In this document: positions 28,155 through 59,798 of the stretch, in pieces
Numbering within the stretch: position 1 is the stretch's first letter
How the letters are laid out: the number at the start of each line of letters is the position of its first letter
NCBI GenBank assembly: GCA_023664955.1
Contig: JAMPEV010000001.1
Span: 321,899-385,898 of the forward strand
DNA: 64,000 nucleotides
Reading direction: 5' to 3'
Source: Duncaniella sp.
GTDB lineage: Bacteria; Bacteroidota; Bacteroidia; Bacteroidales; Muribaculaceae
Position numbers and translations under genes: made by a program
Notes under the pieces: generated by a model
Seen by the model: the letters and a program-made list of their open reading frames with translations, nothing else
Databases searched by the model: none
Told to the model about the DNA's origin: nothing

Positions 28155-30683
28155 TTATTTATATGCGTTTACTGTGGCTGTGTAGGGCTTAAGTCCATCG
28201 GATGTGGCAGTGACGGTGATTGGTCCTTCGTTGCCGTCATTTTGGACGATAAGCATCGCTTTACCGTAGAAGGCTTTGCGTTTGTTATCCTTGAATCGTT
28301 CTAGAGAAATCGGCGAACCATTATCGACTCCGGCATTGACTCCGGCCCCTTTAACTTCAAAGTTCACAAGATTTTCAGCCCATGGACAGAGATTGCCATT
28401 CTTGTCGATAATCTCAACGAGTAGATAGCTTAGGTCGCGACCGTCAGCAATGATTTCAGTGCGGTCAGGTGTGAGGTGAATAGCATATGGTTCTCCGGCT
28501 GTGTGAATTTCCTGAGTGGCTACGATTTCACCATTCTTGCGGCTGACAGCTTTCACGGTGCCGGGCTCGAAATTCACTCGCCACATCACGTGATACTCGC
28601 CGGGTTTCTTGGAACGCACACCCTGCGATTCCCCGTTGATGAAGAGTTCAACCTCGTCGGCATTGTTGTAGTATGCCCACATATCAATTTCTTGACCATT
28701 TTCCCAATTCCAGTGGGGGAACAGGTGAAGCACATTCTTGTCAGGACGCCATTGTGATTGATACATATAATATACATCCTTAGGGATACCGGCAAGATCA
28801 ACAATTCCGAAGTAGGAGCTACGTGCAGGCCATCCGAATGGAGTTGGCTCGCCGAGATAGTCAAATCCGGTCCAGATGAACTCTCCTGAAATGTAATCGT
28901 TTCCGTCCACTCTGCGCAGTGTCTCTTCGTGGGTGGTGCCCCATGGCACGTGGCAATTATCGTATGATGAGCATGAGAAACTCTCCTCAAAGAATGGAAT
29001 ATCCCAGCGTTTTGGCCAAATGTACATCGTATCAGAGGGCATTCGGTAGTATCCGCGAGTTTGCAGTGCTGAAACCCCTTCGGTGATAACGAAAGGCTTG
29101 CCAGGAAACCATTTAGGTACTGAATCGAAATATTTATCCTGATAGTTATAGCCGATCACATCGAGCACACCGGCGCGGAAAAGGTGGTTGCCGGGATTGG
29201 CTTCATTGCATCCGGCGGTAATCGGACGAGCCGGGTCGAGGTGGTGGACCATGTCGTATAGTTTGCGGGTAAGTAGCGAATTAACGCTCAGTTCGCCTTC
29301 TTCCGATGCAAGCATATCCTTGCTGTGTCCGAAGTTGAGGATGAGATTTGCTTGTTCAAGCGAAAGAGTGTCGGCGTTAGCATCACTCCATTGTTCAAGT
29401 ACCTCATTACCAATACTCCACATTATGATTGATGGATGGTTACGATCGCGTACTATAAGGTCGGTGAGATCCTTTTCGTGCCATTCCGGGAAATAGCGGG
29501 CGTAGTCGTGGGCGGTTTTCTTCTTCCTCCACATGTCAAACGGCTCATCCATCACCAGGATGCCCATGCGGTCGCAAAGGTCAAGTACCTCTGGCGCAGG
29601 GGGATTATGTGTGGCACGATAGGCATTTACTCCCATCTCTTTCATTATTTCAAGTTGTCGCTGGATGGCGCGGGTATTGACAGCTGCACCAAGAGCCCCG
29701 AGGTCATGATGCATACACACTCCCTTGATTTTCATTGGTTTACCATTGAGGGTGAAGCCTTTCTCAGCGTCGAAATTGAAATATCGCAGACCTGTTGTGG
29801 AGGAGTAGGTGTCAAGCAATTCGCCGGTTTTAACATCGGAAACGAATGTCATAACGGTATAAAGATATGGGTCTTCGGTGCTCCAAAGATGTGGATTGGT
29901 AATCTTAACCGAGCCCTTTGCCACAACCTTATTCTGTCTTTTTGTGAGTTTTAGCACTTCGGATGCGGTTTTAGCTATCATTTTACCGTTATTATCGATA
30001 ACAGACGAATATACGCTAACCTGTTGAGACTTTGATGATTTGCTCACAATGTCAGTTGCAATGCTGATTTTGGCTTGGTGGTCTGAGACATCGGTGGTGA
30101 TTTGCTGGCCCCACAGTGGTATATGCACCGGATTAAGAGCGCGAATCCACACGTTTCGATAGATACCGCAGCCGCTATACCAGCGAGAATTAGGTTGTTC
30201 GGCATTATCAACACGCACTGCTATCACATTATCTCCCTCGCGGTTGAGATAAGGAGTCATGTCATAGCTGAACGATGCATATCCGTAGGGACGGGTGCCA
30301 AGCTCATGACCGTTAATGTAAACAGTGGAATTCATGTAGGCTCCGTCAAAATCGATATACAGTTCCTTGTCCTTCTGTTCAGGGGGGAGTGTGAACGTTT
30401 TGCGATACCACCCCACACCGCCGGGAAGTGCTCCTCCGCCGGTACCTGACGGATTGTCCTTGCTGAAATCACCTTCGATGGCCCAGTCATGGGGAAGGCT
30501 CAGCTTGCGCCATGAGGTGTCATTGAAGTCGGGATTGGAATACTCCTTGCTGTCGGAGAGGACAAATCTCCAACCATCGTTGAAAGGAAGAGCGCGACTG
30601 TCGGATGCTGAAACAAGAAAATTGGCTGCCACGCCTATGAAGGCGAGGCAAGCCAATAAAATCAATCTTTCCTTAGAAATCAT
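28155..30683 (-). CDS. Glycoside hydrolase family 2 beta-galactosidase
   Basis: 842 residues with an N-terminal signal peptide and no lipobox Cys, so probably periplasmic. Domain order: sugar-binding jellyroll (about 30-200, with LPFNDGWRFVLSD and LPHDWAIEGDF), immunoglobulin-like domain, TIM barrel (about 310-610) with acid/base Glu427 in MWSIGNEV and nucleophile Glu535 in FVITEGVSA, then two C-terminal Ig-like domains (DUF4982-like and the GH2 C-terminal type). Next to a PA14-GH31 enzyme and a GH3 enzyme, removal of galactose from xyloglucan side chains is the most likely task. Specificity is inferred from context. Confidence 0.92.
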   Translation of the reverse strand: MISKERLILLACLAFIGVAANFLVSASDSRALPFNDGWRFVLSDSKEYSNPDFNDTSWRKLSLPHDWAIEGDFSKDNPSGTGGGALPGGVGWYRKTFTLPPEQKDKELYIDFDGAYMNSTVYINGHELGTRPYGYASFSYDMTPYLNREGDNVIAVRVDNAEQPNSRWYSGCGIYRNVWIRALNPVHIPLWGQQITTDVSDHQAKISIATDIVSKSSKSQQVSVYSSVIDNNGKMIAKTASEVLKLTKRQNKVVAKGSVKITNPHLWSTEDPYLYTVMTFVSDVKTGELLDTYSSTTGLRYFNFDAEKGFTLNGKPMKIKGVCMHHDLGALGAAVNTRAIQRQLEIMKEMGVNAYRATHNPPAPEVLDLCDRMGILVMDEPFDMWRKKKTAHDYARYFPEWHEKDLTDLIVRDRNHPSIIMWSIGNEVLEQWSDANADTLSLEQANLILNFGHSKDMLASEEGELSVNSLLTRKLYDMVHHLDPARPITAGCNEANPGNHLFRAGVLDVIGYNYQDKYFDSVPKWFPGKPFVITEGVSALQTRGYYRMPSDTMYIWPKRWDIPFFEESFSCSSYDNCHVPWGTTHEETLRRVDGNDYISGEFIWTGFDYLGEPTPFGWPARSSYFGIVDLAGIPKDVYYMYQSQWRPDKNVLHLFPHWNWENGQEIDMWAYYNNADEVELFINGESQGVRSKKPGEYHVMWRVNFEPGTVKAVSRKNGEIVATQEIHTAGEPYAIHLTPDRTEIIADGRDLSYLLVEIIDKNGNLCPWAENLVNFEVKGAGVNAGVDNGSPISLERFKDNKRKAFYGKAMLIVQNDGNEGPITVTATSDGLKPYTATVNAYK

Positions 30684-30698: not shown

Positions 30699-33578
30699 TT
30701 AGATTTTCACAGTCTGGGAAGTTCCATCGTAGGTTACGAGAGTACCCTTGTTGTCACGATTGTAGCCAATGGGATTCTCTTTTGAAACCTTCACAATGTT
30801 AAACTTGCGGCTCTTAAGCATGCCGGGAAATTCACCCTTGCGTTCACCTATAGTTAGAGTGCTCTCAGAGTCGTTGTAGGTGAATGGAATTGTGGCATAT
30901 TGACCTTTTTCGTAGTTGTAGTTTACGTTTTCATCCTCATAGAGAGTGAATTGGCCGTTCTCGCCGGCATAAACGTAAAGGTTGATTTCCTCTGCCGGTT
31001 TTTCGTCGCTCCATTGCATTGCCGGTCCGAATGGCACGATTGAGCCTGAGCGGACATATAGGGGCATCCTTTCATAGGGGGCTTCGACTTTGAGGGTCTG
31101 ACCACCGTCCGTTATTTTACCGTTATAGAAGTTGTACCAAAGTGCCCCGGCAGGGAAATAAACTTCACGGGAGGTGGCTCCGTAGGTATAAACCGGGGCT
31201 ACAAGGAATGCCGGACCAAACATATATTCATCGCCGATATTACGTGTTGCCTTGTCAGCGGTGAAGTCCATTACGAGCGGACGCATGATGGTATAGTCAT
31301 CGAAGTATGTCATGCCTGCAAGCGAGTAAATATAGGGCATTAGGTCGTAACGGAGATTGGTATAGTAGACCACAGATTTGTAAGCCGGATGATTTTCCGG
31401 TGCAATGTTGAAGATTTCACGGTAGGGCCACTGACCGTGAGCACGGAAGAGTGGGGCAAACGCTCCAAACTGATACCATCGGGTGTTAAGTTCACGCCAT
31501 TCTTTCATGTCAGGAGTCTCTGTGCCGGTTTTCGCAAATTCTGCTGCGCCCTTTACGTATCGGTCTTCAACGCAGAAGCCGCCGATGTCCATTGTCCAGT
31601 AAGGAATACCGGAAGCAGCGAAATTAAGACCTGCTGAAATTTGGGCTTTCATATCCTCCCAACGGGTTGCGATGTCTCCACTCCAAGTAGCTGTGGAATA
31701 GCGCTGTTGGCCTGCGAAACCAGAGCGAGTGAGAAGGAATACGCGCTTGTCGGGGTCAACGCCGCGTTGCCCATTGTATATAGCGTCGGCGTTCATTAGA
31801 CCGTAGGCATTGAAGAATTTAGTTGACGGTCCCAACGCTGTAGGGGTAATCAAGTCTTTGCGATATTGGATATCAGTGCAATCGCGGATATTGGGTTCAG
31901 AAGCATCCATCCACCAGGCATCGATGCCCAGAGGGTAGTAGTGTTCCTCCATCTGTTGCCAAAAGAGTTTGCGTGCTCCTTCGCTGTAGGCGTCGTAGAA
32001 AGAACCAAGATAACCGGGCCCAACCCAGTCGCGGATGCTGTCCTGAACAGGAAGTTTGTACATCCATCCGTTCTTGTCAAATTCCTTATAATGTTCAGTG
32101 GTGACATAAAATTTAGGCCATACAGAGATCATAACTCGTCCGTGCATGTCATGGATAGAGTCGACCATGCCCTTAGGATCCGGGAAACGGTCGCGGTCAA
32201 ATTCGTGGCTTCCCCATGAATCTTGTTTCCAGTGTAGCCAGTCAATCACGATGTTATCTATGGGGATGTTACGCTTGCGGAACTCCGCGAGAGTAGAGAG
32301 AACCTCGTCGGAGGTATTATACTTTTCGCGGCTCTGCCAGTAACCCATGGCCCATTTAGCCATTATGGGAGCTTTGCCGGTGAGTGTGCGATAGCCGGAG
32401 ATAACGTCGTCCATGTCATCACCATAGATGAAATAGTAGTCAATCTGACTTTGCATTTCACCCCACCAGCTCATCTGCATTTGCTCTTTATTGTCACGTG
32501 GAGCGTAGGCACGAAGACCGCAATAAGCTACCGAGCCGTTGGGTTCCCATTGGATTTTGATGGGGACACGTTTGCCTTTTTCAAGTTCTACTGAAAATTT
32601 GTAGGAGTTTGGGTTCCAGGCGGTGCGCCATCTTTCTGGAACAACCTCCTTGCCATCGATTAGCACACTCATGTAGCCTGAGTAGTAGAGGATAAACTTG
32701 TATTCACCTGATTCAAGTGGCTCTATTTCGCCTTCGTAAGTCACGTGGCTTCCGTAGTAATTGAAATCTTGGGGAAGGTTGACCACATGCTTGAGCTCTT
32801 TACGGATTAGATGCTCGAAGTAGATTGAGTCTTCACGCTGTACGATAGTCGGTGTTTCGGACTTGGCAGGTGTGTACGAACCGGTGAGCGCGCCTTCTTT
32901 GCCATCTTTGTCATATAGCTTAAACACTTCACCGAGCTGACTATAGTCGTCGGGATTACCGAAGCGGCATAGCGAATAGCTGTCCCAAAGTATGCCGTAG
33001 TTGTTGGTAGATATTACGAAGGGGACAGAGACCTTGGTGTTGTATTGGAAAAGCTCCTCGTTAAGACCTTTGTAATTGAATTCGTCGGATTGATGTTGGC
33101 CAAGGCCATATATACCTTCTTCATCGTCAAGTGATTCGAATACCTGACGTACGGTGTAGCCATCGGTTTCTTCTACCTTGATGGGGGAGAATTCACGGCC
33201 GCCGTCGGCTTCGGAGACGATTAGTTTGCCCTCTTTGTCGAAGAATTTAACGTCGCCTGATGAGAGTGATACAACAGCTTTGACATCAGGAGTTACCACC
33301 GAAACGGTTGAATCGGATTCCTCCACTTTGTAGTCAGGTTTGCTTTCTTGGGGGGTTACCACGAGGCTCTCCTCATTGGCAAATTGCTTGTCGGGTGTGG
33401 CGGAGACACGGATAATCTTATTGCCAAGAACTTGCAGGCGCACCTTTTGAGTGGTGTTTGGCCCTGAAGATGCGACATTGACGATTATGCCATTGTCGGT
33501 TTTTTCGTACTTTCCCGTCGTACATGAAACTGCCATTAGAGCAGCCAGTAAAGAAGCTGATAGAAATCGAAATTTCAT
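30699..33578 (-). CDS. Glycoside hydrolase family 31 alpha-xylosidase with PA14 insert
   Basis: 959 residues. The lipoprotein signal ends at Cys19 (AVSC), followed by TTGKYEK without an acidic run, which favours the periplasmic side. An N-terminal beta-sandwich (about 25-245) is followed by a PA14-like insert (about 247-360: NYYGSHVTYEGEIEPLESGE, YSGYMSVLIDGKEVVPERW). The GH31 barrel has nucleophile Asp558 in WWMDASEPN and acid/base Asp635 in WSGDIATRWED. C-terminal beta domains follow. A PA14 insert is a hallmark of xyloglucan alpha-xylosidases in Bacteroides loci, so I call it an alpha-xylosidase. It is first in the leftward enzyme operon, 15 nt before GH2. Confidence 0.92.
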   Translation of the reverse strand: MKFRFLSASLLAALMAVSCTTGKYEKTDNGIIVNVASSGPNTTQKVRLQVLGNKIIRVSATPDKQFANEESLVVTPQESKPDYKVEESDSTVSVVTPDVKAVVSLSSGDVKFFDKEGKLIVSEADGGREFSPIKVEETDGYTVRQVFESLDDEEGIYGLGQHQSDEFNYKGLNEELFQYNTKVSVPFVISTNNYGILWDSYSLCRFGNPDDYSQLGEVFKLYDKDGKEGALTGSYTPAKSETPTIVQREDSIYFEHLIRKELKHVVNLPQDFNYYGSHVTYEGEIEPLESGEYKFILYYSGYMSVLIDGKEVVPERWRTAWNPNSYKFSVELEKGKRVPIKIQWEPNGSVAYCGLRAYAPRDNKEQMQMSWWGEMQSQIDYYFIYGDDMDDVISGYRTLTGKAPIMAKWAMGYWQSREKYNTSDEVLSTLAEFRKRNIPIDNIVIDWLHWKQDSWGSHEFDRDRFPDPKGMVDSIHDMHGRVMISVWPKFYVTTEHYKEFDKNGWMYKLPVQDSIRDWVGPGYLGSFYDAYSEGARKLFWQQMEEHYYPLGIDAWWMDASEPNIRDCTDIQYRKDLITPTALGPSTKFFNAYGLMNADAIYNGQRGVDPDKRVFLLTRSGFAGQQRYSTATWSGDIATRWEDMKAQISAGLNFAASGIPYWTMDIGGFCVEDRYVKGAAEFAKTGTETPDMKEWRELNTRWYQFGAFAPLFRAHGQWPYREIFNIAPENHPAYKSVVYYTNLRYDLMPYIYSLAGMTYFDDYTIMRPLVMDFTADKATRNIGDEYMFGPAFLVAPVYTYGATSREVYFPAGALWYNFYNGKITDGGQTLKVEAPYERMPLYVRSGSIVPFGPAMQWSDEKPAEEINLYVYAGENGQFTLYEDENVNYNYEKGQYATIPFTYNDSESTLTIGERKGEFPGMLKSRKFNIVKVSKENPIGYNRDNKGTLVTYDGTSQTVKI

Positions 33579-33784: not shown

Positions 33785-36700
33785 TTAGAGGGTGCGATTT
33801 GTTATATGCTCCTCGCGCTGCTGGTAATCTGAAGGTAGTATGCCGAATTCCTCCTTGAAATATTTGCTGAAATTTTTGGGAGCGTTAAACCCTACCTGAT
33901 AGGCTATTTCCGAGACGTTAAGCTGACTCTCACGCAGCATTTGGGCACCTCGTTTTAATCGGAGGATGCGGATGAATTCGATTGGGGTCTTGCCGGTGAT
34001 AGCTTTGAGCTTCTTGTAAAGATGTACGCGGCTCATGCATAGGTGAGAACTGAGTTCGTCTACTGAAAGGTCAGAACGTTTTATGTTTGAGACAACGTAT
34101 TTCACGGCTTTTTCCACGAGCTGCTCGTCATAGGGTGTGATGGTAATATCATCGGGTTCGGGGTCTATGAGTGTACGGGAGACACCGCGTTTTGTCAGTT
34201 GGATGAGCCGTTTCATACGTAGGATAAGAAGCTGAAGGTCGAAAGGTTTGGTTACGTAGTCATCGGCGCCGATAGTCAGTCCTTCCACTTTATCGCTGGT
34301 ATCTTGCTTGGCCGTTAGTATGATGATGGGTATTGGGGAGAATTCAGGTTTAGCTTTAAGTTGGCGGCATAGTTCCACTCCATCCATCTCAGGCATCATA
34401 ATATCGGTAAGAATGATAGAGGGTCGAAGGGTGGAAATTGTGTTTAGGGCTTCCTTCCCATTTAGGGCTGTCATCACGTGGAAGTCATTTTGCAACCCAT
34501 CTTTAAGGAAATCAAGCATCTCAGTGGAGTCATCGACAACGAGCGCGATAGGTTTCTGGTCATTCTTGTCTTTTTTTATGGGCTGTTTAACAGGTTTTTC
34601 TGAATCGGCGGAAAGCAAGATTTTGGTCTCTGATGCCTGTTGGACCGGAGTTGTATCAATTTTTTTATCCTGAACTATAGGCAAAGAAACAATGAAAATA
34701 GAACCCCTTACAGAGTTGTCGATTACTTTGATATCGCCGTTGTGAAGACTAATATACTCTTTTACAAGACTTAACCCGATTCCATTACCCATTGCATTAT
34801 ATACGGTGGAATCATCAACTTGGAAGAAACGTTCAAAAATTTTCTGCTTGTTTTCATCCTTGATGCCCGGACCGGTATCAGCCACGCTGATTAGGAATGT
34901 TGAACCCTCAACCTTCAGATTGACATCGACTTGTCCACCCTCAGGGGTATATTTGAACGCATTTCCTAAGAGGTTCATGATGATTTTGGAAAGTTTGTCT
35001 TCGTCAAACCTCATCTGCAGTGATTCGACGGAGGATGAGAAGTTGAAGCTTATGTTGTTGCGTTCGGAGAGAGAGACAAAGGATTGACATACATTCCTGA
35101 TGAATGCAGCTACGTCGCCATGAGTGGGGTGAAGAGTGAGTCCGGTGACTTCATTCTTACGGAAATCAAGCAGCTGGTTCACCATGTTTAGTAGCCGTAA
35201 GGCGTTGTTACGCATTACAGTTAGCGTTTTTAGCTTAGAGGCGTCATTAGTCTCCTTAATCATGGCTTCAAGAGGTGAGATTATAAGGGTGAGGGGAGTT
35301 CGGAGGTCGTGACTCACGTTGGTGAAGAACTTGAATTTCATTTGGTTAAGTTCTTCTTGCTTTAGCCTTGCCACCTCTTTTCGCTTCTCATTGAATTTAC
35401 GACGTTCATGGCGTTGAATAAGACGGTAAACTAAGTATACAGCGAGAATGAACAGTATGGAATACAATATTTTAGCCCAAATAGAAAGCCAAAAAGGAGG
35501 ATGTACGGTGATTTCGACAACGGCAGGCTCGATGCTTTGGTATTTATCATTGTTATAAGCGGTTACAAGCAGACGATATTTACCGGTTGGGAGATTTGTA
35601 TATGTAATTTGATTGTGTTGGGTGGAATTCCATTCTTCGTTGAAACCTTCGAGTTTATACCGGTAACTATTTTTTTCGGGAAGTACATGGTTGTCTGTGG
35701 CAAGGTCAATGCTGAAATCGGAATTGCCATGCCACAGGTCAATCTTACGACATCGGTTAAGTGCCGTGTTGATGATGACGTGTCCATCGATTTTCTCACC
35801 GGGCCTAACTTCCTTATTCCCAATGTGGAGATTGGAAAAAATAACCTTGGGGAGAGTGCGATTAAAAGTGATGTTGGTGGGATTGAAATGGTTGATACCA
35901 TATAGTCCACCTACAAGAATGTCACCGGAAGGAAGTATGGCGAACGAACGTTGATTAAAGTCGCTGTTCTGAAGTCCGTCCTCAGTGCCGTAGCTCTGCA
36001 TGGTGACATTAAAATCACCGGTTTTGCTGTCAAAATCGGGGGTTATATGAATCAACCGGGACCCTTCGCTGACCCACATATTGTTCATCTTATCTTCCTG
36101 GATGCCAAGAATCAGCGATGGCGTATCGTTTTGATGAGTATTGATCGTGTGGACACGATTGCGATTTGGGTCATATACTTGCAAAGTTTCAGCCGTTGCT
36201 ATCCAAAGCAGCCCGCGGGAGTCATAACAGATGTCTATAATGTTATTTTCATATACGTTATCGAGTAAGGAAATTTTCTGAGTGGTAGGATTATAGGAGT
36301 TAACGCCGTAAGCGGTCCCAAAATAGACGACACAGTTTGCACCGACGGCAATCGATGTGACATAATCGGAGGTAAGACCGGAATTATTCAGGTTATATTC
36401 TTTTATGACAGAAGTAACAGGATTATAATTGAAAACACCGGCACCAAGGGTTCCGATCCAAATATTATTACCATTGTCGGAAAGTGCGAGTGACCATGTA
36501 TAAGTGCTATCTAACCTTGTGCCTGTTTTAATATGCTCAAACTTATTGTTATGTAGGCGTTTAAGACCTCTGCTATAACTTCCGATATATAAATCACCTA
36601 TAGGTGTTTCAAGAAGGGATGTTAAAGCCGGAGGATTATCATAGTCTGCCGGGTCCGGGTAATGTTTAATAGATCCTGTAGATGGGTCACGGCTCAAAAG

Positions 36701-37876
36701 TCCGGCCGCATCTGTTCCTATCCATTCTGTACCGTCACTCCCGACCGTAATACAATTTACATCAGGGAGTGAAAACAGGGAGAATTTATGTGCACTCTGA
36801 TTGTGGTAAAATACGCCTTTTTTATATGTGCCAATCCAAAGAGTTGATGATGGGTCATCGTAAATTGTTATGACTGTGTTGTTTACTTCTTTGTCAGAAT
36901 TATCAGCTACAGGCTCGAAACGTATTCCCTCACTTCCTTTCACTACTTGTTCGAGGCCATGATGGTCGCGACCTATCCATATTTTGCCATTGTTGCCCTG
37001 GTGTAATGTTTTGATTGTCAAGTTTTTACCGTGATGGGGCAAAAGGTCGCTTAACCACTTATGGTCAGTGAGATCATAAAGCCACAATTGCTCATAACTA
37101 TAAATCCACAGGAGGTTGTCACGGTCGAACATCAATGAAAAAGTGACCGGTCGATTCGTGAGGAGTTGATTGGCTATGTGATTTTCAGTGGTGACAATCC
37201 TTTTTGTTTCGTGGTCAATGAGGGACAATGTGCCTTTGTCATCTATGGCAACGATGCCATAAGGCGTTTCTATTAAATCAGTAATGACGGTATTTCCAAA
37301 CAGCTGTTCATCAATTTTTTCCGCTTGTTTTCCGTACACTTTCCGTACCTTTTCCGTACCTTTTCCGTACACTTTCCCCTCTCTTTCCCCTCTCTGTCCC
37401 CTCTCTTCAGCTCCATCTCCATCCATATAATATATGCCATCACCTGATATATATATCCACATCCCTTTATCACTATCTATGTATACGAGCGAAGGTGTGG
37501 AGTTAAGGCCATATTCCCTCAACCTATCAGTGACGGTAGTAGCGAGCATGTCTCTGTCAGGGTCGTATAAAAGATACCCTCCGCTGGTGCGAATCCAAAG
37601 GGAACCGTTAGCATCCTCCTGGATTTCCTCTATATTATTGCTGTTAACATTACCGGTTTCCGAGACATCAGGATGATATATTTTGAAGGAGTAACCATCA
37701 TAACGGCATAAGCCGGAAGAGGTGCCAATCCAAATATATCCTTCCGAGTCACGGTAAATAGAGTTAATCTTGTTGTTAGATAAACCATTACCGGTATCAA
37801 GATGCTTAAGGAAAAGCTCCGATGAATAAGCGATAGAAATGGTGAAAAGTGATATGAGAAATAGGAGAAAGCGCAT
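33785..37876 (-). CDS. Hybrid two-component system sensor-regulator (HTCS)
   Basis: A one-protein two-component system of 1363 residues that senses glycan fragments in the periplasm and activates the locus. Order: signal peptide (about 1-17); two seven-bladed Reg_prop propellers (about 20-710, repeats such as IWIGTSSGLCRYDGYSF); a Y_Y_Y domain; one membrane helix (about 801-823); histidine kinase with His856 in FFTNVSHDLRTPL; ATPase domain NLLGNAFKYTPEGG; receiver with Asp1158 in ILTDIMMPEMDG; C-terminal AraC-type helix-turn-helix. Residues about 158-183 come from seven tandem 11-bp repeats and read as a charged low-complexity insert between propeller blades. The frame is open in this sequence. 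It is transcribed away from SusC. Confidence 0.96.
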   Translation of the reverse strand: MRFLLFLISLFTISIAYSSELFLKHLDTGNGLSNNKINSIYRDSEGYIWIGTSSGLCRYDGYSFKIYHPDVSETGNVNSNNIEEIQEDANGSLWIRTSGGYLLYDPDRDMLATTVTDRLREYGLNSTPSLVYIDSDKGMWIYISGDGIYYMDGDGAEERGQRGEREGKVYGKGTEKVRKVYGKQAEKIDEQLFGNTVITDLIETPYGIVAIDDKGTLSLIDHETKRIVTTENHIANQLLTNRPVTFSLMFDRDNLLWIYSYEQLWLYDLTDHKWLSDLLPHHGKNLTIKTLHQGNNGKIWIGRDHHGLEQVVKGSEGIRFEPVADNSDKEVNNTVITIYDDPSSTLWIGTYKKGVFYHNQSAHKFSLFSLPDVNCITVGSDGTEWIGTDAAGLLSRDPSTGSIKHYPDPADYDNPPALTSLLETPIGDLYIGSYSRGLKRLHNNKFEHIKTGTRLDSTYTWSLALSDNGNNIWIGTLGAGVFNYNPVTSVIKEYNLNNSGLTSDYVTSIAVGANCVVYFGTAYGVNSYNPTTQKISLLDNVYENNIIDICYDSRGLLWIATAETLQVYDPNRNRVHTINTHQNDTPSLILGIQEDKMNNMWVSEGSRLIHITPDFDSKTGDFNVTMQSYGTEDGLQNSDFNQRSFAILPSGDILVGGLYGINHFNPTNITFNRTLPKVIFSNLHIGNKEVRPGEKIDGHVIINTALNRCRKIDLWHGNSDFSIDLATDNHVLPEKNSYRYKLEGFNEEWNSTQHNQITYTNLPTGKYRLLVTAYNNDKYQSIEPAVVEITVHPPFWLSIWAKILYSILFILAVYLVYRLIQRHERRKFNEKRKEVARLKQEELNQMKFKFFTNVSHDLRTPLTLIISPLEAMIKETNDASKLKTLTVMRNNALRLLNMVNQLLDFRKNEVTGLTLHPTHGDVAAFIRNVCQSFVSLSERNNISFNFSSSVESLQMRFDEDKLSKIIMNLLGNAFKYTPEGGQVDVNLKVEGSTFLISVADTGPGIKDENKQKIFERFFQVDDSTVYNAMGNGIGLSLVKEYISLHNGDIKVIDNSVRGSIFIVSLPIVQDKKIDTTPVQQASETKILLSADSEKPVKQPIKKDKNDQKPIALVVDDSTEMLDFLKDGLQNDFHVMTALNGKEALNTISTLRPSIILTDIMMPEMDGVELCRQLKAKPEFSPIPIIILTAKQDTSDKVEGLTIGADDYVTKPFDLQLLILRMKRLIQLTKRGVSRTLIDPEPDDITITPYDEQLVEKAVKYVVSNIKRSDLSVDELSSHLCMSRVHLYKKLKAITGKTPIEFIRILRLKRGAQMLRESQLNVSEIAYQVGFNAPKNFSKYFKEEFGILPSDYQQREEHITNRTL
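37328..37404 (-). repeat. Seven tandem 11-bp repeats inside the HTCS gene
   Basis: Seven back-to-back units of exactly 11 bp on the plus strand. The first four are of type yTTTCCGTACm (37328-37371), the next two are identical CTTTCCCCTCT (37372-37393) and the last is CTGTCCCCTCT (37394-37404). They encode GQRGEREGKVYGKGTEKV and nearby residues. Loss or gain of one or two units shifts the frame, and stops follow within about 4-18 codons in both other frames. Confidence 0.9.
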
Positions 37877-37907
37877 GGTATTAACATTTAAGTGTCATAT
37901 TAGATTA

Positions 37908-37939
37908 CAAACTTAGTTAAAGTTAACAAATCATGCAAA
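37908..37939 (-). promoter_or_regulatory. Full consensus promoter of the HTCS gene
   Basis: On the minus strand TTTG (37936-37939), a 20-nt spacer and TAAGTTTG (37908-37915) match the Bacteroidota housekeeping consensus. Steady basal expression of the sensor is therefore expected. The leader is about 30 nt. Confidence 0.7.
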
Positions 37940-38070
37940 TCAAAGATGTTAATAAATTTCCGATTAGATTTATGCCAAATAAAAACGCATTGAATATTAA
38001 TGTTTTGGCTATTATATCATTAACATTTAAACATCATGAATATAACAAATAATGCCCCTGTAAACTCTCT

Positions 38071-38101
38071 TTTGTGACGAAAATGTTTTAAAATAATTTT
38101 G
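38071..38101 (+). promoter_or_regulatory. Full consensus promoter upstream of the PUL susC
   Basis: TTTG (38071-38074), a 19-nt spacer and TAATTTTG (38094-38101) match the consensus. The predicted leader is unusually long, about 168 nt. The 398-bp divergent gap (37877-38274) is AT-rich and contains this promoter and that of the sensor; I see no clear direct repeat that would mark the HTCS operator. Confidence 0.65.
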
Positions 38102-38274
38102 TCATATAAATACATATTTTTACATTTGCTATGTGATATTATTAATATACGTAAAGCAAGAATAAACCTACCATGAGACGTTGAAAAATTTTGAAACTCC
38201 ATGAAAGTTTAAGCAATAACTGCGGAAAACAATAAATACTTTAAATATTAACCAGTTAAACTAAATTACATTCA

Positions 38275-41200
38275 ATGGGAAACAAACTAATGGGACGATG
38301 CAAATCATCATTGCATCTCTTCCGCTCAGCCCTGATAGCCCTCTGCTTCCTCGCGGGAGTCAGTGTTGCCTCGGCTGAACAGTTGACCGTTACCGGAACG
38401 GTAACCCAGGCCTCAGATGGAGAACCGCTGATTGGTGTCAGTATTCTCATCAAAGGAACCTCAAACGGTGCTACCACAGACATTGATGGTAACTATTCAA
38501 TCAAAACAGAGACCGGAGCCACTCTGGTGTTCTCGTATGTAGGTTGCCAGACACGTGAAATCGTGGTGAACTCTTCAAAAATTGACGTAGCTTTACTCGC
38601 CGATAATGAAGTCCTCGACGAAGTTGTGGTGGTAGGTTACGGCGTTCAGAAGAAGAAACTTGTCACTGGAGCAACTGCTCAAATCAAGGGTGATGATATT
38701 GCAAAAATGAATACCACAAGCCCATTGCAGGCTATGCAGGGTCAGCTTCCCGGTGTAAGCATTGCCTCTGAATCAGGTCAGCCGGGTTCAGGCATGAAGG
38801 TTACAATCCGCGGTCTCGGTACTATCGGTAATGCATCCCCTCTTTACCTCATTGACGGTGTCGGAGGTGACATTTCAACCCTTAACCCCGCCGATATTGA
38901 ATCAATAGATGTGCTCAAAGACGCAGCATCAGCTGCCATCTATGGCGCACAGGCCGCTAATGGTGTGGTTCTCATCACCACCAAGCAGGGGCGTGAGGGG
39001 AAGGCTAAAGTTACCTTCGACGGTTACTTCGGTTGGCAGACAGTAGCTCGCAAAATGGATATGCTCAACGCAAATGAGTATATGACTATCATGGACGAGA
39101 GCCAGCTCAACAGTGGTCTTGCACCTTACGACTGGGCATCTATGAAATCAATCTGGCGCACAAACGCAGCCGGAGAGAAGGAAATCATCGACACCGACTG
39201 GATTGACACTATGTTCCATGACAATGCCAAGACTTCAAGCTACACCATCGGCGTGACCGGGGGTAACACCGCTTCTACTTATGCGCTTTCACTCGGCTAC
39301 TTGAACCAAGAAGGTATCGTGGGTGGTCCGTCAGTATCTGATTATTCACGCTACAACTTCCGTATCAACTCTGACCATAAGCTGTTTAACGGCATTGTAA
39401 CTGTTGGTGAACAGGCAAGTTTCATCTACGTTAAGAGCACAGGTATCGGTGTGGGTAACCAGTATAACAACACTCTCCGTGGCGCATTCGGCGTTTCACC
39501 CCTCGCACCCGTGTACAACGAAGAAGGTAAGTACAACGACACCAGCAATAGCGACTGGTACATGTATGACGGCAACCCCTATGGCTCCATGATGGTAACA
39601 ACCAACAATCGTACAAAGAAGGCTACATTCAACGGCAACGTCTATGCCCAGATTGAGCCTATCAAGAATTTAAAAATTCGCACATTGTTCGGAGCCGTAT
39701 ACAACACAAGTGAATATCGCAGTTTCAGCCCGATTTATCGTTTCTCACCTTACTCATATAATGAATATACGAAAGTGAGCCAGAATATGAACCATTCACT
39801 TGGCATGACATGGACTAACACTGCAACTTATGATTTCAGCATTGGTGACCATGAGTTCAATGCCCTCATCGGTATGGAAAGTTACCGCTATAGCGGCACA
39901 TACCTTGGCGGCGGTCAGGGTAAGCTCAAGGAAGGCTTCGATGACTGGGCTCACGCTTGGATTAGCAACGGTACAGGCTCCACAGTCGGTGAAAATGGTG
40001 TCAGCGTGTCAGGTAATCCGCACGATGACTCTCGCTCAGTCAGCTATTTCGGCCGTCTCGGTTGGAACTGGCAGGAGAAATATATGATTAACGTGACAGT
40101 GCGTCGTGACGGTTCTTCACACTTCGCCAGCGGTCATCGTTTCGGTACATTCCCTTCTGTTTCTGCAGGTTGGAACATTTCCAACGAAAAATTCATGGAG
40201 TCAATAGCCTCATGGTTAAGCTTCTTGAAAATCCGCGGCAGCTGGGGTCGTGTAGGTAATCAAAACATTGATAACTACCAGTATCTAGCACCTATCAAGA
40301 ATCAGCACACACATTACTACTTCGGACAGTATCTCGGCCCTAACGGTACTCTCATGGATTACTCATCAGTCCTCGCCAATAACTGGGGCGCATATCCCTC
40401 ACGCCTTGGCAACCTTGATGTAACTTGGGAAACATCTGAACAGCTTGACTTCGGTTTTGATGCCCGTCTCTTTGACAGCCGTCTCGGTATCAACTTCGAC
40501 TGGTATCAGAAGACCAACAAGGACTGGCTCGTTGTTGCTCCTATCCTTGCAACAGCGGGTACCGACGCTCCATTCATCAACGGTGGTGATGTTAAGAACA
40601 CCGGTGTGGAACTCGGTCTCAGCTGGAACGACGTAATCGGACGCGACTTCTCTTATAGCGTAAGTGTGAACGGCGCATATAATAAGAATAAAGTCGGCTC
40701 AATACCCAACGAAGATGGTATCATCCATGGCGATTCCAACACTCTATATGACAATTCACTTGAATTCTACCGCGCGCAGAACGGTATGCCTATCGGTTAT
40801 TTCTGGGGATACAAGACAGCCGGTATATTCCAGAACCAGGAGCAGATTACCGACTGGATTTCAGCAGGTAACGGCGTACTTCAAGGTAATGTGCAGCCCG
40901 GAGATGTTATATACGTAGATGTTAACCATGACGGAGTGATTAACGATGCTGATAAAGTGGACCTCGGTAACGGGATGCCCAAATTTACTTATGGTTTCAA
41001 TATTAACCTCTACTACAAGAATTTCGACCTCGGCATCACAGCTAACGGAGCTGCCGGATTCGACATCGTACAAAGCTACCGTAACCAAGGTAACAAGCAG
41101 GCCAACTATACTTCAGCGATTCTTGACCGCTGGACAGGAGAAGGCACATCTAACAAAATACCTCGCGTGACTAACGAGAATATCAACTGGCAATTCTCCG

Positions 41201-41457
41201 ACCTCTACATTCAGGACGGTGACTACCTCCGTATCTCTAACGTGACATTCGGCTACAATTTCGCTCCTCTTCTCAACCAGAAATGGTGTAGCAACGCCCG
41301 CCTCTATTTCCAGGCTCAGAACCTCTTAACATTCACCAAGTATGACGGTATGGATCCGGAAATAGGTTATGGAACTCAGGCATGGGTGTCAGGCGTTGAC
41401 CTTGGTTACTACCCGCGTCCGCGTACCTATCTGATAGGTGTTAACCTTGCTTTCTAA
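38275..41457 (+). CDS. SusC-family TonB-dependent outer-membrane transporter (xyloglucan-type PUL)
   Basis: Imports oligosaccharides across the outer membrane with energy from TonB. The 1060 residues comprise a signal peptide (FLAGVSVASA), a carboxypeptidase-regulatory-like domain (about 35-115: VTGTVTQASDGEPLIGVSI), a TonB-box region DEVVVVGYGVQKKK, a plug (about 135-250 with PLYLIDGVGGDISTLNPADI) and a 22-strand barrel ending in Phe (LIGVNLAF). It is the first gene of the rightward operon, 33 nt before susD, and is expected to form the lidded SusCD complex with it. There is no sigma/anti-sigma extension, which agrees with control by the HTCS. Confidence 0.96.
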   Translation: MGNKLMGRCKSSLHLFRSALIALCFLAGVSVASAEQLTVTGTVTQASDGEPLIGVSILIKGTSNGATTDIDGNYSIKTETGATLVFSYVGCQTREIVVNSSKIDVALLADNEVLDEVVVVGYGVQKKKLVTGATAQIKGDDIAKMNTTSPLQAMQGQLPGVSIASESGQPGSGMKVTIRGLGTIGNASPLYLIDGVGGDISTLNPADIESIDVLKDAASAAIYGAQAANGVVLITTKQGREGKAKVTFDGYFGWQTVARKMDMLNANEYMTIMDESQLNSGLAPYDWASMKSIWRTNAAGEKEIIDTDWIDTMFHDNAKTSSYTIGVTGGNTASTYALSLGYLNQEGIVGGPSVSDYSRYNFRINSDHKLFNGIVTVGEQASFIYVKSTGIGVGNQYNNTLRGAFGVSPLAPVYNEEGKYNDTSNSDWYMYDGNPYGSMMVTTNNRTKKATFNGNVYAQIEPIKNLKIRTLFGAVYNTSEYRSFSPIYRFSPYSYNEYTKVSQNMNHSLGMTWTNTATYDFSIGDHEFNALIGMESYRYSGTYLGGGQGKLKEGFDDWAHAWISNGTGSTVGENGVSVSGNPHDDSRSVSYFGRLGWNWQEKYMINVTVRRDGSSHFASGHRFGTFPSVSAGWNISNEKFMESIASWLSFLKIRGSWGRVGNQNIDNYQYLAPIKNQHTHYYFGQYLGPNGTLMDYSSVLANNWGAYPSRLGNLDVTWETSEQLDFGFDARLFDSRLGINFDWYQKTNKDWLVVAPILATAGTDAPFINGGDVKNTGVELGLSWNDVIGRDFSYSVSVNGAYNKNKVGSIPNEDGIIHGDSNTLYDNSLEFYRAQNGMPIGYFWGYKTAGIFQNQEQITDWISAGNGVLQGNVQPGDVIYVDVNHDGVINDADKVDLGNGMPKFTYGFNINLYYKNFDLGITANGAAGFDIVQSYRNQGNKQANYTSAILDRWTGEGTSNKIPRVTNENINWQFSDLYIQDGDYLRISNVTFGYNFAPLLNQKWCSNARLYFQAQNLLTFTKYDGMDPEIGYGTQAWVSGVDLGYYPRPRTYLIGVNLAF

Positions 41458-41490: not shown

Positions 41491-43164
41491 ATGAATAAAT
41501 TTAAATTCAATATATTGACCCTTGGTGTGGTCGGAGCACTCAGCATGACCTCATGCTCAGATAGCTTCCTCGATGTCACATCAAAGACTGACTCAAATAC
41601 CGAGAACTTCTATAAGACAGAAGGTGATGCTTGGCGAGCGCTCCTTGGTTGCTACGACGGGTGGCGTCAGATTTCATCCAATCCCGGTAAGCAAATCTAT
41701 GTGTCTGCTACCGTTATGAGTGACGAATGTTACGGTGGTACCGGTAACGGCGACGGTTTCGGCTATCAGGTGCTTGATACATTCGACCCGATGAAATCAC
41801 CGGGCGATCAGCAGCTTTTTAGTACCGACTGGAAGGTTTATTATGCCGGTGTGTATCGTTGTAATGAACTTATTGCACATGAGGAGCAGATAACATGGGA
41901 AAGCGAAGCTAACCATGGACTTTACATGGGAGAGTGTCATGCAATTCGCGCGTTGCTTTACTTTGACATGGTGCGTCTGTGGGGTAATATCCCATTGTTC
42001 ATCGAACCTGTTAATGAGAACCGCGAGCAAGCTGATCCTGCCGAGGTATATGCTGCGATATTCGAGGATCTTAAGTTCGCAATCGCCAATATTCCGGCTA
42101 ATGCCAATCTCACAGAGAGTGAGTCAGGCCGTATTACCAAGTATGCCGTAGAGTCCATCCTTGCGCGCGCGTACCTATTTTATTCGGGATATTACGGTAA
42201 AGACCCCGGCTTCACCAATGCAGAGGGTGTAACTACCGGCGTAGTGACTAAGGCAGAAGCTCTTGCTGCTGTTGAAGATGTAATAAATTCCGGTAATTAC
42301 GGACTTGTGGCTGACTTTAAGACCCTTTGGCCGGCGGCCTCGCTCGTCCCCATACCTGACAGCAATGGATGGGACACTTCAAAGTCAACCTACGCAGGTG
42401 ACTACAACAAGGAAATCATTCTTGCCCAGAAATTCACACCTACCCAGGATTATAGCGGCAATAATGACTCCAACCGTTGGTTGGTGATGATGGGCATGCG
42501 CTCCCTTAATTTCACTCCTTACGGAAAAGGCTGGGGCGCTGCGACTGTGACTCCATACTTCTTGGAGAAATATCTCAAGGATGACCCACGTTACACCCCC
42601 TCGGTAATCGACCTCGAAGCTGAAGGTATCACCGGAACCAATGATTTCAACAGCTCATACAATGACCAGCGCGAATACACAGGTTACACAGTTAAGAAAT
42701 ATTCTCCACTTGTATATGGTAATGGTAACCCGGGAACAAACGCTGACGGTACAGCCGGATTCCAAGAATGTAACGCTAATCAGTGGGTAATAGTGCGTTA
42801 CGCCGATGTGCTGCTTATGGCGGCAGAACTTGGCTCAGGAAATGCTGCTAATTATATGCACCAGGTTCGCGCACGTGTGGGACTTGACGATATCGCAGTT
42901 AACCAGCAGAACATCATGGATGAGCGAGCTCGTGAACTTGCATTCGAGGGTCACCGTTACTGGGATCTCCTCCGTCAGGGTGTAAACGTTGCGGCAGATG
43001 CTATTGCTGCATCCGCAGGCAAGGTGTTTAATGGAGGTGTAGAAACCACAGTTTCTTATAACAAGAATACCATCGTGGCTACTCAGGGTCTTTCACAGAT
43101 TCCGGAGGATCAGATTACACTCTCCAATGGCGTACTCAAACAGAATCCCGGTTGGGGCAAATAA
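41491..43164 (+). CDS. SusD-family surface glycan-binding lipoprotein (xyloglucan-type PUL)
   Basis: Forms the lid on the SusC channel and binds the glycan. The 557 residues start with a lipoprotein signal ending at Cys22 followed by SDSFLD. Early TPR-like helices (about 60-200) include AIRALLYFDMVRLWGNIPLF and the SusD hallmark ILARAYLFYSGYYG. The C-terminal RagB/SusD block DERARELAFEGHRYWDLLRQG is present. Aromatic-rich segments may form the binding face. A 269-nt gap with a nested hairpin separates it from the next lipoprotein gene. Confidence 0.95.
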   Translation: MNKFKFNILTLGVVGALSMTSCSDSFLDVTSKTDSNTENFYKTEGDAWRALLGCYDGWRQISSNPGKQIYVSATVMSDECYGGTGNGDGFGYQVLDTFDPMKSPGDQQLFSTDWKVYYAGVYRCNELIAHEEQITWESEANHGLYMGECHAIRALLYFDMVRLWGNIPLFIEPVNENREQADPAEVYAAIFEDLKFAIANIPANANLTESESGRITKYAVESILARAYLFYSGYYGKDPGFTNAEGVTTGVVTKAEALAAVEDVINSGNYGLVADFKTLWPAASLVPIPDSNGWDTSKSTYAGDYNKEIILAQKFTPTQDYSGNNDSNRWLVMMGMRSLNFTPYGKGWGAATVTPYFLEKYLKDDPRYTPSVIDLEAEGITGTNDFNSSYNDQREYTGYTVKKYSPLVYGNGNPGTNADGTAGFQECNANQWVIVRYADVLLMAAELGSGNAANYMHQVRARVGLDDIAVNQQNIMDERARELAFEGHRYWDLLRQGVNVAADAIAASAGKVFNGGVETTVSYNKNTIVATQGLSQIPEDQITLSNGVLKQNPGWGK

Positions 43165-43433: not shown

Positions 43434-45350
43434 ATGAAAAAACAATTGAAATATTTATTTTCGTTGTCACTGACTGCAATGGCGATGCTCACAGCTACGA
43501 CCGCATGTTCACCTGACGACCACGAGCTCGCCGCTCCTATTGCGACGCCTGAGGAGCTCGTTGAGGGTATCGCGTTTACCGCTACGCCCGATGCTAACGA
43601 CCCCAATACGATTCACTTGAAATCATTGGTTGTGGGTTGTACTCCCGTTTGGAAAACTCCCAATGGAATGTCGCAGAATATGGAACTCGACATCCAGTTC
43701 CCTTTCGCAGGTGACTATGACGTAACATTCGGTGTCATGACACAGGCTGGAACAGTGTGGGGCGAACCTTACACCATTTCAGTTACTTCCAACAACTTCG
43801 GCCTGCTTTCCGACGCAATTTGGACTAATCTCGCCGGTGGTGTCGATGAAAATGGCCATGGTAATCCTAAAAAATGGGTGCCTTGCAACAATAATTACGG
43901 TATCGGTAGCTGCTCTTCGCCCATGATGTACATGAGCCCCGACGATTATCCCGAACCATTGTTCGGCTCAGGCAATTGGGCTCCCAACTGGGACCCCGGT
44001 TTCCAATCATGGCTAATCCCTGCTGATGACCCCTATATGGATTCTTACATGACTCTTTCACTCGACCCGGTGAAAGGTTGCGTTGTGGAGATGATGCGTA
44101 AGACAGCTGACGGTGAAGAGCATATAACAGGTAAATTCAACCTTAATGTCTCTGATCCCAAGCATCCGATGATTACCTTCATGGATGGAGCTTACTCACT
44201 CCATAATAAGGGTATGGATGGAACTTGCTCTAACTACACCAACGATATCCGCATCCTCGAGTGCACTCCTTACCTCCTCCAGGTTGCCACAATGCGCACC
44301 AACAGTGAGGGCCCATGGTGGTTGGTCTGGAACTTCATTTCTGAGGATCTCAAGAATGATCCTTCAATTCTTCCCTCTGAAGGTCCCGACTTGATCGAAG
44401 GTAAACCGGTACAGGAGCCTGCTTACGACGACCTCGCAACTTCATTATTCACAATCTCTGGTGACAATGCTACCTATATCGCAACTCAGACCACATATCT
44501 TCTCGACGAAGAAACACCTTACGACTATATGTGGTGGAATCCAGCTAACGGTGCTTGGGAATGGATTAACGGTTACGGTTCAACTTGGGCTCCCGCTTAC
44601 GAAGGTGGCGAAGATTTCGCTCTCACACTCGATAAAGGTGGCAAGATGGAGCTTGAAAATGCTGAAGGTGGTGCTTCTACCACATTCACGCTCAAGGGCA
44701 ACAAGATTGTCTTTGGAAAGGAAGTGACCCTCCTTACCGCCGGCAATGTTTCGGTTAAGGGTAGTGAGTTCACAGTGATGAAATGTTCACCTGACGATAA
44801 TGAAGTGGTGTTCGGTGTCCCCGTTGAATATGACAACACTGGCGCTGCCAATAAGTATCTCTGCGCTAAGATGACTATCAAGCCTATCAGCGGTGGTGCC
44901 ACCGGCCCGACTGAGATAAAGGTTGACAACAGCAAGCTCGATATCTATCTTGAAGCTAACAAGTATCTCCGCATACAATTCTATAATCCATGGGCAGGTA
45001 AAGATGACAGCGCATGGCCCATCGATCCTACTAAACTCAAACTTAAGAAGAACCAGAAGCTAGTGCTTAAGTTCACAGTTTCAGGCATTGAATGGACAGG
45101 TACCCCCCGCGCGGCATTCTGTTGCAACATAGACGGATTTGAATGGGAACCTAACTGCTTCACCAACTTCCAGGGCGTTGACTTCAACACCACCGGCGAG
45201 AATGTGATGACACTCACAAATGAAACAGGTTCAACCTACAATTTCTACACTGTAGGTTCACTTCAAGTGTCAATCCAGCTATCAGACTTTGCTGCTTCTA
45301 CCGATATATCTAATGTGGTGGTGAATGTGACCTCTCTTACTATTGAGTAA
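43434..45350 (+). CDS. Putative surface glycan-binding lipoprotein (first of two)
   Basis: 638 residues in the position of the SGBP genes of Bacteroides xyloglucan loci. The lipoprotein signal ends at Cys25, followed by SPDDHE, an acidic surface-export pattern. An Ig/PKD-like N-terminal region (about 30-125) leads to a Trp-rich middle (about 130-310, WAPNWDPGFQSWLIP and GPWWLVWNFI). A second lipocalin-like stretch (about 335-480) and a C-terminal beta module (about 490-638) end it. The C-terminal module contains YLRIQFYNPWAGKD, which resembles segments in the next protein. No catalytic motif is seen. Glycan binding is inferred from position and aromatic content. Confidence 0.8.
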   Translation: MKKQLKYLFSLSLTAMAMLTATTACSPDDHELAAPIATPEELVEGIAFTATPDANDPNTIHLKSLVVGCTPVWKTPNGMSQNMELDIQFPFAGDYDVTFGVMTQAGTVWGEPYTISVTSNNFGLLSDAIWTNLAGGVDENGHGNPKKWVPCNNNYGIGSCSSPMMYMSPDDYPEPLFGSGNWAPNWDPGFQSWLIPADDPYMDSYMTLSLDPVKGCVVEMMRKTADGEEHITGKFNLNVSDPKHPMITFMDGAYSLHNKGMDGTCSNYTNDIRILECTPYLLQVATMRTNSEGPWWLVWNFISEDLKNDPSILPSEGPDLIEGKPVQEPAYDDLATSLFTISGDNATYIATQTTYLLDEETPYDYMWWNPANGAWEWINGYGSTWAPAYEGGEDFALTLDKGGKMELENAEGGASTTFTLKGNKIVFGKEVTLLTAGNVSVKGSEFTVMKCSPDDNEVVFGVPVEYDNTGAANKYLCAKMTIKPISGGATGPTEIKVDNSKLDIYLEANKYLRIQFYNPWAGKDDSAWPIDPTKLKLKKNQKLVLKFTVSGIEWTGTPRAAFCCNIDGFEWEPNCFTNFQGVDFNTTGENVMTLTNETGSTYNFYTVGSLQVSIQLSDFAASTDISNVVVNVTSLTIE

Positions 45351-48109: not shown

Positions 48110-49855
48110 ATGAAAATGTATAAATCAATAATTACAGCTGTTGCCCTTACTATAATCGGCGGATTCGTAGCTTCTTGCGGAGGTGACAATGATAATCCTA
48201 AATTGGAGTTTGCATCCGGAGATTTTGTTGTGAGCCATACCGAGCTGGCTGTAGTGGGTACTAAGGAGTACACTTTGTCCATCAAGTCGCCCGTAAAACC
48301 TTCTTTATCAGCGGATGCGCAATGGATTCATTTGGGTGAACCTTCCACTACTTCTTCTAAGGTGTATACAGTGAGGTTATGGTGCGATGAAAATAGTGCC
48401 TACGATGTCCGCACCGGTACTGTGTCTGTTGAAGCAGGCGGCTATACCAAGACCGTCGCTATTTCTCAGTACGGAGCTGAGACAGTCGAAATACGTTCGT
48501 TAGATCCCGGGACTACTCTCTTGGCAGAAGGTGGAGTGTTGACACTGAATTATGCTGCGACAGGTGCTGTTGATGTAAAAGCGCCGGAATGGTTGCAACA
48601 GATTAAAAGTAAGGCGTTGACTGAGAACGCTATTCAATTTTCATACTCAGTAAATTATGGTGAAGCAGAACGTACGGGCGAAATTGTGATTTCACTTTCG
48701 AGTGATGCCTCTGTCTCAAAGAGTGTCACGGTTAAGCAGGCAAACATGAAGCCGTCATCCGACATGAGCGACAATGCTCTTCAGTTGGTCAAGAAAATAT
48801 ATGCCGGAGTCAACATCGGTAATACGATGGAATGTCCTGGAGAAGAGGGCGCATGGAGCGGCGCGAAGGTAAATGAAACCTATGTTAAGGGACTGAAAGC
48901 TCTTGGTTTTAATGCTGTGCGTGTGCCGTGTGCATGGGATAGCCATGTTTCTGACAAAGCAACCAATACTATCGACCCAGCATGGCTTGACCGTGTTAAT
49001 GAAGTTGTGGGTATGATTGTCGCCAACGATATGTATGCTATTGTCAATATCCACTGGGATGGCGGATGGCTTGAAGAGTCATGCGTTAAGGGATATGATG
49101 AGGCTGTTAATAAGAAGCAACATGACTACTGGACTCAGATAGCCGGCAGGCTCAATCATTTTGACCAGCATTTGCTCTTCGCAGGCATGAATGAACCCGG
49201 ACAGCAGGATCAGGGTGGTGTAAACAGCAGTTCTATGGATGCTATGATGAAGTATCAGCAGACTTTCGTGGATGCCGTTCGTGCAACAGGTGGCAATAAT
49301 GCAACTCGTTGTCTCGTACATCAGGCTCCCTATACCAACATTGACAAGGCAGTGGAGGGTGTCTATCACCTTCCCTCCGACAAGGTGTCAGATCGCTCTA
49401 TCCTTGAAGTTCACTTCTACGATCCGTCTGATTATACCATTATGGGCAAGGATGGCGAATGGGGCGCAGGCTCTAAGGTGCGTCTTTATTGGGGTAAGAA
49501 TTTCCACGTGGAGGGTTCTGACCGCAACTGTACTTGGGGTGAAGAAGATTACGTGGATGCTCAGTTCAAGAAAATCAAGGATAAATATGTCTCTGCCGGA
49601 ATCCCTGTGATTGTAGGTGAATATTCCACATCAATACGCAAAGCTTCTGACTTCAATCCATTTGATAAGGCCGCCTATGAGGCAAGTCGTGCCCATTGGA
49701 ATGAGTATGTCACCTTGTCGGCAAAGAATCATGGTTGCGCTACTTTCTACTGGGAGACAGGAAGCGACATTAGCCGCTCTACCGGTGTAGCTATCTTTCC
49801 CTACGCCATTGATGCCCTTATGAATGGCGCCAAAGCAGGCAAATATCCTTTCTAA
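48110..49855 (+). CDS. Glycoside hydrolase family 5 endoglucanase with two BACON domains
   Basis: A surface lipoprotein of 581 residues: signal ending at Cys23 followed by GGDNDN. Two BACON domains (about 30-115 and 118-205, with VKPSLSADAQWIHLG and WLQQIKS) space a GH5 barrel (about 215-575) from the membrane. Catalytic residues are Glu362 in FAGMNEPGQQ (acid/base) and Glu504 in VIVGEYST (nucleophile). Other GH5 marks are GVNIGNTMECPG, FNAVRVPCAW and VNIHWDGGWLE. BACON-GH5 is the same layout as the keystone surface endo-xyloglucanase of Bacteroides ovatus. I do not assign a GH5 subfamily. It would cut the polymer before import. Confidence 0.93.
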   Translation: MKMYKSIITAVALTIIGGFVASCGGDNDNPKLEFASGDFVVSHTELAVVGTKEYTLSIKSPVKPSLSADAQWIHLGEPSTTSSKVYTVRLWCDENSAYDVRTGTVSVEAGGYTKTVAISQYGAETVEIRSLDPGTTLLAEGGVLTLNYAATGAVDVKAPEWLQQIKSKALTENAIQFSYSVNYGEAERTGEIVISLSSDASVSKSVTVKQANMKPSSDMSDNALQLVKKIYAGVNIGNTMECPGEEGAWSGAKVNETYVKGLKALGFNAVRVPCAWDSHVSDKATNTIDPAWLDRVNEVVGMIVANDMYAIVNIHWDGGWLEESCVKGYDEAVNKKQHDYWTQIAGRLNHFDQHLLFAGMNEPGQQDQGGVNSSSMDAMMKYQQTFVDAVRATGGNNATRCLVHQAPYTNIDKAVEGVYHLPSDKVSDRSILEVHFYDPSDYTIMGKDGEWGAGSKVRLYWGKNFHVEGSDRNCTWGEEDYVDAQFKKIKDKYVSAGIPVIVGEYSTSIRKASDFNPFDKAAYEASRAHWNEYVTLSAKNHGCATFYWETGSDISRSTGVAIFPYAIDALMNGAKAGKYPF

Positions 49856-55856: not shown

Positions 55857-55877
55857 TCTTTGAATTTGATTATCATA

Positions 55878-57461: not shown

Positions 57462-57499
57462 TATTCGTGTTAGGTTTAACATCTTAAAATTTTATCGCT

Positions 57500-58402: not shown

Positions 58403-58422
58403 CTCTCTAAGGACTTTAAATT

Positions 58423-59787: not shown

Positions 59788-59798
59788 TACTATAAAAG

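Follow-up and report, generated by a model that had tools for sequence, protein, structure and literature searches.

In a lineage of the Bacteroidales, the gene of a hybrid two-component sensor/regulator (HTCS) carries within its coding sequence a tandem array of seven 11-bp units, which we regard, with a probability of roughly 0.6, as a lineage-specific minisatellite located in a tolerant turn of the periplasmic propeller of the sensor and capable of causing a slow, reversible loss of the sensor. The array was found in a stretch of DNA of 64,000 nucleotides, which is referred to hereafter as the window.

The sensor gene and its array

The sensor gene (33785–37876, minus strand) is an intact frame of 1363 codons that stays open through the array, and its 1363-aa product unites in a single chain the Reg_prop propeller and Y_Y_Y sensor part, HisKA, HATPase_c, a receiver and an AraC-type HTH, as is proper to an HTCS. 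These domains, together with the nature of the neighbouring genes, bear out what a previous sequence-only reading of this DNA had proposed, namely that the gene encodes the hybrid two-component sensor of a PUL. The same reading had placed seven 11-bp units at residues ~158–183 of this protein, and the array is indeed found there, at 37328–37404 on the minus (coding) strand, corresponding to residues 158–183. The units had also been described as contiguous and of exactly 11 bp; their length stands, while the units are not identical and fall into three main types, GAGAGGGGAMA (three units), GTGTACGGAAA (two) and AGGTACGGAAA (two).

With the units phased so as to end in GGAAA, their order is GAGAGGGGACA, GAGAGGGGAAA, GAGAGGGGAAA, GTGTACGGAAA, AGGTACGGAAA, AGGTACGGAAA and GTGTACGGAAA, followed on the same strand by a degenerate eighth unit, ACAAGCGGAAA (37318–37328). 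The three GAGAGGGGAMA units constitute Block A (37373–37405, minus strand), which contains a perfect period-11 run of 24 bp (37395–37372), and the following four (GTGTACGGAAA, AGGTACGGAAA twice, GTGTACGGAAA) constitute Block B (37329–37372, minus strand), with a perfect run of 31 bp (37370–37340); these two runs are the longest perfect period-11 stretches of the array and correspond to ~2.8 perfect copies in a row at most. Unit 3 is identical with unit 2, unit 6 with unit 5 and unit 7 with unit 4, a distribution that fits a stepwise duplication of units. A uniform mutation pattern across the 11-bp unit was considered and rejected, in that 13 of the 14 differences between adjacent units (eight units compared) concern positions 1–6 and the remaining one GGAAA, a bias that is suggestive, although the core was picked post hoc. 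The insert encoded by the repeat, at 11 residues per 33 bp, is basic and charged.

Rarity of the array

The array far exceeds what chance would produce: the sensor gene scores 48.2 at period 11, vs a maximum of 14.8 over periods 5–40 in 300 codon shuffles, and the 20 other scored genes of the window reach 13.0 at most. Further copies of the GGAAA type in the same genome were looked for and discarded, the pattern of three successive GGAAA units spaced 11 bp apart having a single occurrence in this genome (83% complete), the sensor array itself; an 11-bp array of another core lies outside genes (locus L151, 12177–12223).

A TRF survey of the own genome covered the window plus 400 kb (20 stretches), i.e., 464 kb in all, genes being defined as script-kept frames of at least 120 aa. 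In these 464 kb, all arrays with at least 3.5 copies and a period not divisible by three, except that of the sensor, fall outside the kept frames; as to the nine coding TRF rows detected outside the window, the period is a multiple of three in eight and amounts to 19, with 2.1 copies, in the ninth. Twenty stretches from as many other genomes, some of them picked because their contig held an array, yielded one further coding row of this sort, with 4.1 copies of period 10, within a frame of 144 codons that consists largely of the repeats. Finally, 19 rows with a period not divisible by three were recorded in the 99 kinase-like frames present in 113 loci, the window gene included. Three of these rows are the sensor array. 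The other 16 comprise a 15-bp array read with a period of 4 bp (10 copies, 72% matches) and otherwise only rows of 3.1 copies or fewer. The sensor array is an outlier both among these 99 frames and within the window.

Relatives of the sensor and the insertion site

In the genus set of 27 genomes, including the own genome, the sensor is matched in 16 with an E value of 1e-100 or better. As orthologues we took the nine non-self matches that ranked highest (47–56% identity), and the other rows (28–38%, bar the second piece of one orthologue) were treated as other sensors. The insert of ~27 residues is absent from all nine aligned orthologues, so that presence of the same array in them is ruled out. 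In more distant sensors from named records, the corresponding segment measures 31–44 residues in 33 cases out of 33, vs 63 in the window sensor; these 33 consist of 29 in the main alignment and four initially left out for their longer sensor parts (35–43 residues), the candidate loci L040, L052 and L069, devoid of a long frame, being left out of the set. The segment bearing the insert comes after the G-[IL]-x-x strand of a blade of the propeller, and the site is probably a surface hairpin turn, judging from the sequence pattern. The insert, which had been surmised to lie between propeller blades, falls at a turn at which the length of the segment varies among relatives.

Beyond the array the protein is well preserved: compared with the orthologue of genome G001, the sensor part is 48% identical, vs 62% for the kinase, 58% for the receiver and 82% for the HTH, and the window sensor has intact H, N and D boxes. 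Since kinase, receiver and HTH are conserved beyond the array, the gene has probably been ON most of the time, and the data suggest that it has long been in use.

The alignments also bear on the suspicion that the array might be an assembly or consensus error. The source assembly is 83% complete and in 21 contigs, and repeats are error-prone; nevertheless, the array is heterogeneous and hence easier to place, it lies within a contig of 1.70 Mb, the frame is open through it, and both flanks align to the orthologues in one and the same frame, so that an error of this kind appears very improbable. The genome comparison sets comprise one genome per species, and a search of viral_contigs by exact flank pattern found no second strain.

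Predicted consequences of a change in unit number

The effect of unit number was determined in silico for 1–13 units, obtained by removing or repeating the last units. The sensor frame is intact with 1, 4, 7, 10 and 13 units, whereas counts of 2, 3, 5, 6, 8, 9, 11 and 12 yield a protein of 173–215 residues, ending ahead of the kinase part. The array itself contains no stop in any frame of the coding strand, and a stop is encountered 5 codons past it with six units and ~18 codons past it with eight. The arithmetic of the sequence-only reading is borne out: it had foreseen that a one- or two-unit change would cut the sensor short ahead of its kinase part, that a change of three would keep the frame (as it does with 1, 4, 10 and 13 units), and that the two alternative frames would stop ~5 and ~18 codons past the array. 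The sensor gene, in other words, contains a coding array whose unit length is not divisible by three and whose change in count entails truncation.

It is in light of these properties that a dedicated phase-variation switch must be weighed, that is, an array changing its unit number at high rate, such that a part of every population is without sensor and unable to induce the PUL, while three-unit changes stay ON. The non-triplet coding unit and the stops that either of the other frames meets shortly after the array are what such a device would require, and the exceptional standing of the array, both among the 99 kinase-like frames of the 113 loci and in the window, points in the same direction. 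Furthermore, the array lies early in a master sensor and regulator, a position that one would expect of a selected switch and that counts against a slow minisatellite, and there is precedent in the frameshift phase variation of the sensor kinase genes bvgS and flgS (PMC1891110, PMC3930126). On the other hand, the units are degenerate, the conservation of the C-terminal half suggests a mostly ON history, and other GGAAA 11-mer arrays are found neither in the genome nor in the orthologues; on balance we consider a dedicated switch rather unlikely.

Preference is given instead to the minisatellite, whose history would have begun with a purine-rich seed at the turn, amplified by replication slippage or unequal exchange, after which selection would have kept a unit count leaving the frame open. 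A step of one or two units in either direction would then cut the sensor off ahead of the kinase in an event that could be reversed, and the outcome would be a PUL sensor that is lost now and then, reversibly, and not a dedicated fast switch. A fast switch is expected to have nearly identical units. Those of the sensor array have drifted apart, and classical contingency loci are consequently expected to undergo such events more often; we infer the qualification “slow” from this degeneracy, and with perfect runs of 24–31 bp, spaced at 11 bp, slippage might yet be appreciable. A DNA hairpin as the cause of instability was considered and set aside as weak (z of −1.97 and −0.66).

Similar arrays elsewhere in the Bacteroidales

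Four GGAAA units in a row at 11-bp spacing occur in 10 of 397 genomes of the family, vs one for the reversed pattern, and a stricter ACGGAAA pattern is found in four of the 397. At the level of the order, three CGGAAA units are present in 10 of 393 genomes (own genome included), the reversed core in one of 393, a single control core of the same composition in two of 393 and the reversal of the latter in none, a comparison based on small numbers and on a core chosen after seeing the window, from which no defined repeat family is claimed.

Twenty array loci outside the window (10 + 10) were inspected with a frame cut-off of 100 or 80 aa. In 12 of them the array is overlapped by frames of 100–496 aa; in the other eight there is no overlapping frame above the cut-off, one of these (L186) being a gene end cut by the end of the locus. 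Ten overlapping frames plus that of L189 were checked against Pfam, leaving out the frames of 100–107 aa in L118, L122 and L192. Seven of the ten have no family match; the array precedes the matched domain in an L-rhamnose mutarotase frame (L123) and in a DUF4960 frame (L188), and the occurrence within a radical SAM/TRAM protein (L195) is probably fortuitous. The clear coding case is that of L189, a SLFN_AlbA_2/HATPase_c_4 protein having an in-frame 11-bp CGGAAA array after HATPase_c_4; the gene end in L186 is similar to it, the locus stopping two bases past the match.

Of 247 genomes of the order, 42 contain relatives of this SLFN_AlbA_2/HATPase_c_4 family at E 1e-60 or better. The loci of the best 30 of these 42 genomes were added to L189, giving 31 loci, 29 of which were readable. 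Arrays of 11 bp are present in three of the 29 (L189, ~1465–1540; L200, 2755–2826; L217, 2605–2675) and arrays of 12 bp near the same linker in nine; the reading frames are open through the 11-bp linker arrays of all three loci, which indicates that arrays of this unit length can arise and persist in protein linkers within the order. The array of L189 resembles that of the sensor in having a CGGAAA core and an 11-bp unit and in being in frame, but the SLFN_AlbA_2/HATPase_c_4 arrays belong to another protein family and occupy a site, a linker, other than that of the HTCS array.

Linkers that tolerate open-frame arrays of both 11 bp (3/29) and 12 bp (9/29) would also suit the proposal that the basic, charged repeat of the sensor is a stable feature at the protein level, i.e., a selected or neutral propeller loop devoid of any switching, as would the fact that the array is in frame, stop-free and at a length-variable turn. 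Nevertheless, such a loop is absent from every orthologue examined and a frameshift-prone unit is a poor way of coding for a loop that is needed, which leaves this proposal improbable. Doubtful, although less so, is the broadest proposal, according to which the array would be a true coding switch, operating by slipped-strand 11-bp changes and setting the HTCS and its plant-glycan locus on or off in part of the gut population, and would represent one case of a wider tendency towards 11-bp CGGAAA-cored arrays in regulator-like genes of the Bacteroidales.

Other repeats were noticed in the course of the survey. Degenerate intergenic arrays of ~10 bp with a CAAC core occur at 5339–5451 of the window, directly 3′ of a dnaG-like gene (3069–5279), and at 17796–17959 of L155, and similar cores are present in two places of the genome sample. 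In L120 (genome G353, ~1490–1575, reverse strand) tandem GGAAA units face their own inverted copies and could form a long hairpin, and in L180 of genome G123 there are 10-mer arrays of AATCCGTG (52–462 and 2524–2569) with an array of AAAAGTACGGA in the same contig.

The PUL around the sensor

Downstream of the sensor and on the same strand lie the genes of a GH31 (30699–33578), whose closest solved relative is the alpha-xylosidase BoGH31A (1489 bits), of a GH2 (28155–30683) and of a GH3 (25899–28121), all three on the minus strand and the next ones after the sensor, so that a frameshift in the latter might affect them by polarity. Divergent from the sensor, on the plus strand, are a SusC-like TonB-dependent transporter (38275–41457), a SusD-like lipoprotein (41491–43164), two open frames (43434–45350 and 45369–47948) without a family match above the curated cut-off, which from their position are possibly surface glycan-binding proteins, and a BACON + GH5 protein (48110–49855) related to xyloglucanases, with cel5D as best match followed by an exo-xyloglucanase and entry 3zmr. 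The gene set of a xyloglucan-type PUL (SusC/SusD pair, GH5, GH31, GH2, GH3 and HTCS) is thus complete in the window, and from its gene content the locus looks like a xyloglucan PUL.

The locus is conserved, gene order included, in a related species (genome G015), with identities of 77% for GH3, 78% for GH2, 84% for GH31, 84% for SusC, 80% for SusD, 76 and 70% for the next two frames and 63% for GH5; at 52%, the sensor exceeds only the DUF5106 protein (47%), the last one compared. In genome G001 (L232, L233) the PUL looks decayed, in that a tblastn search recovers SusC for its first 80 residues only, just the end of the protein following SusD, a GH2 split into two pieces ~1.5 kb apart and no SusD.

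An invertible promoter between sensor and susC was considered as the real switch and rejected, the inverted repeats of this region (37850–38320) being only short or imperfect. The same gap contains a 19-nt direct repeat (37880–37898 and 38019–38037, 84% alike) with a ATTAACATTTAA core, possibly representing regulator sites. The window also holds a second locus of the SusC/SusD type (52527–60929), with a Peptidase_Mx1 lipoprotein, DUF4302 and BACON proteins.

Comparison with known systems

The locus has its nearest counterpart in the xyloglucan locus of Bacteroides ovatus, to which we take both 3zmr and BACOVA_02651 to belong: the likeness consists of a BoGH31A-like GH31 and a GH5 matching 3zmr, along with the presence of GH2, GH3, SusC, SusD and HTCS. 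The difference is that the window SusD is nearer to other SusD homologues (6gcz, E 1e-40) than to BACOVA_02651 (E 2e-10).

If the sensor array were a frameshift switch, the cells with 4, 7 or 10 units would be ON and those with counts in between OFF, and the use of a substrate would become a bet-hedged trait of a kind missed by scans for inverted repeats. Among the matches listed in the open PMC literature, no title or opening of an abstract was found to describe an HTCS that varies in phase by tandem repeats. For sensor kinases as such, frameshift phase variation is established in the case of bvgS of Bordetella pertussis, in which a change in the length of a coding repeat truncates the kinase and switches a whole regulon (PMC1891110). 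The bvgS repeat is a C6/C7 tract with demonstrated switching, whereas the degenerate 11-bp array of the PUL sensor is a putative switch. The same contrast holds for flgS and flgR of Campylobacter jejuni, two-component genes that are reported to be phase-variable, flgR through coding homopolymer tracts (PMC3930126): there the tracts are homopolymeric, the regulon is flagellar and the switching was measured.

As for the Bacteroidales themselves, phase variation is best described via DNA inversion. The inversion of promoters is a described route for their surface and glycan-related loci (PMC11868660, PMC12548429, PMC10994844). That route relies on site-specific inversion, whereas the feature of the window is a tandem array within a coding sequence; a frameshift switch in the sensor, if true, would therefore constitute a second route.
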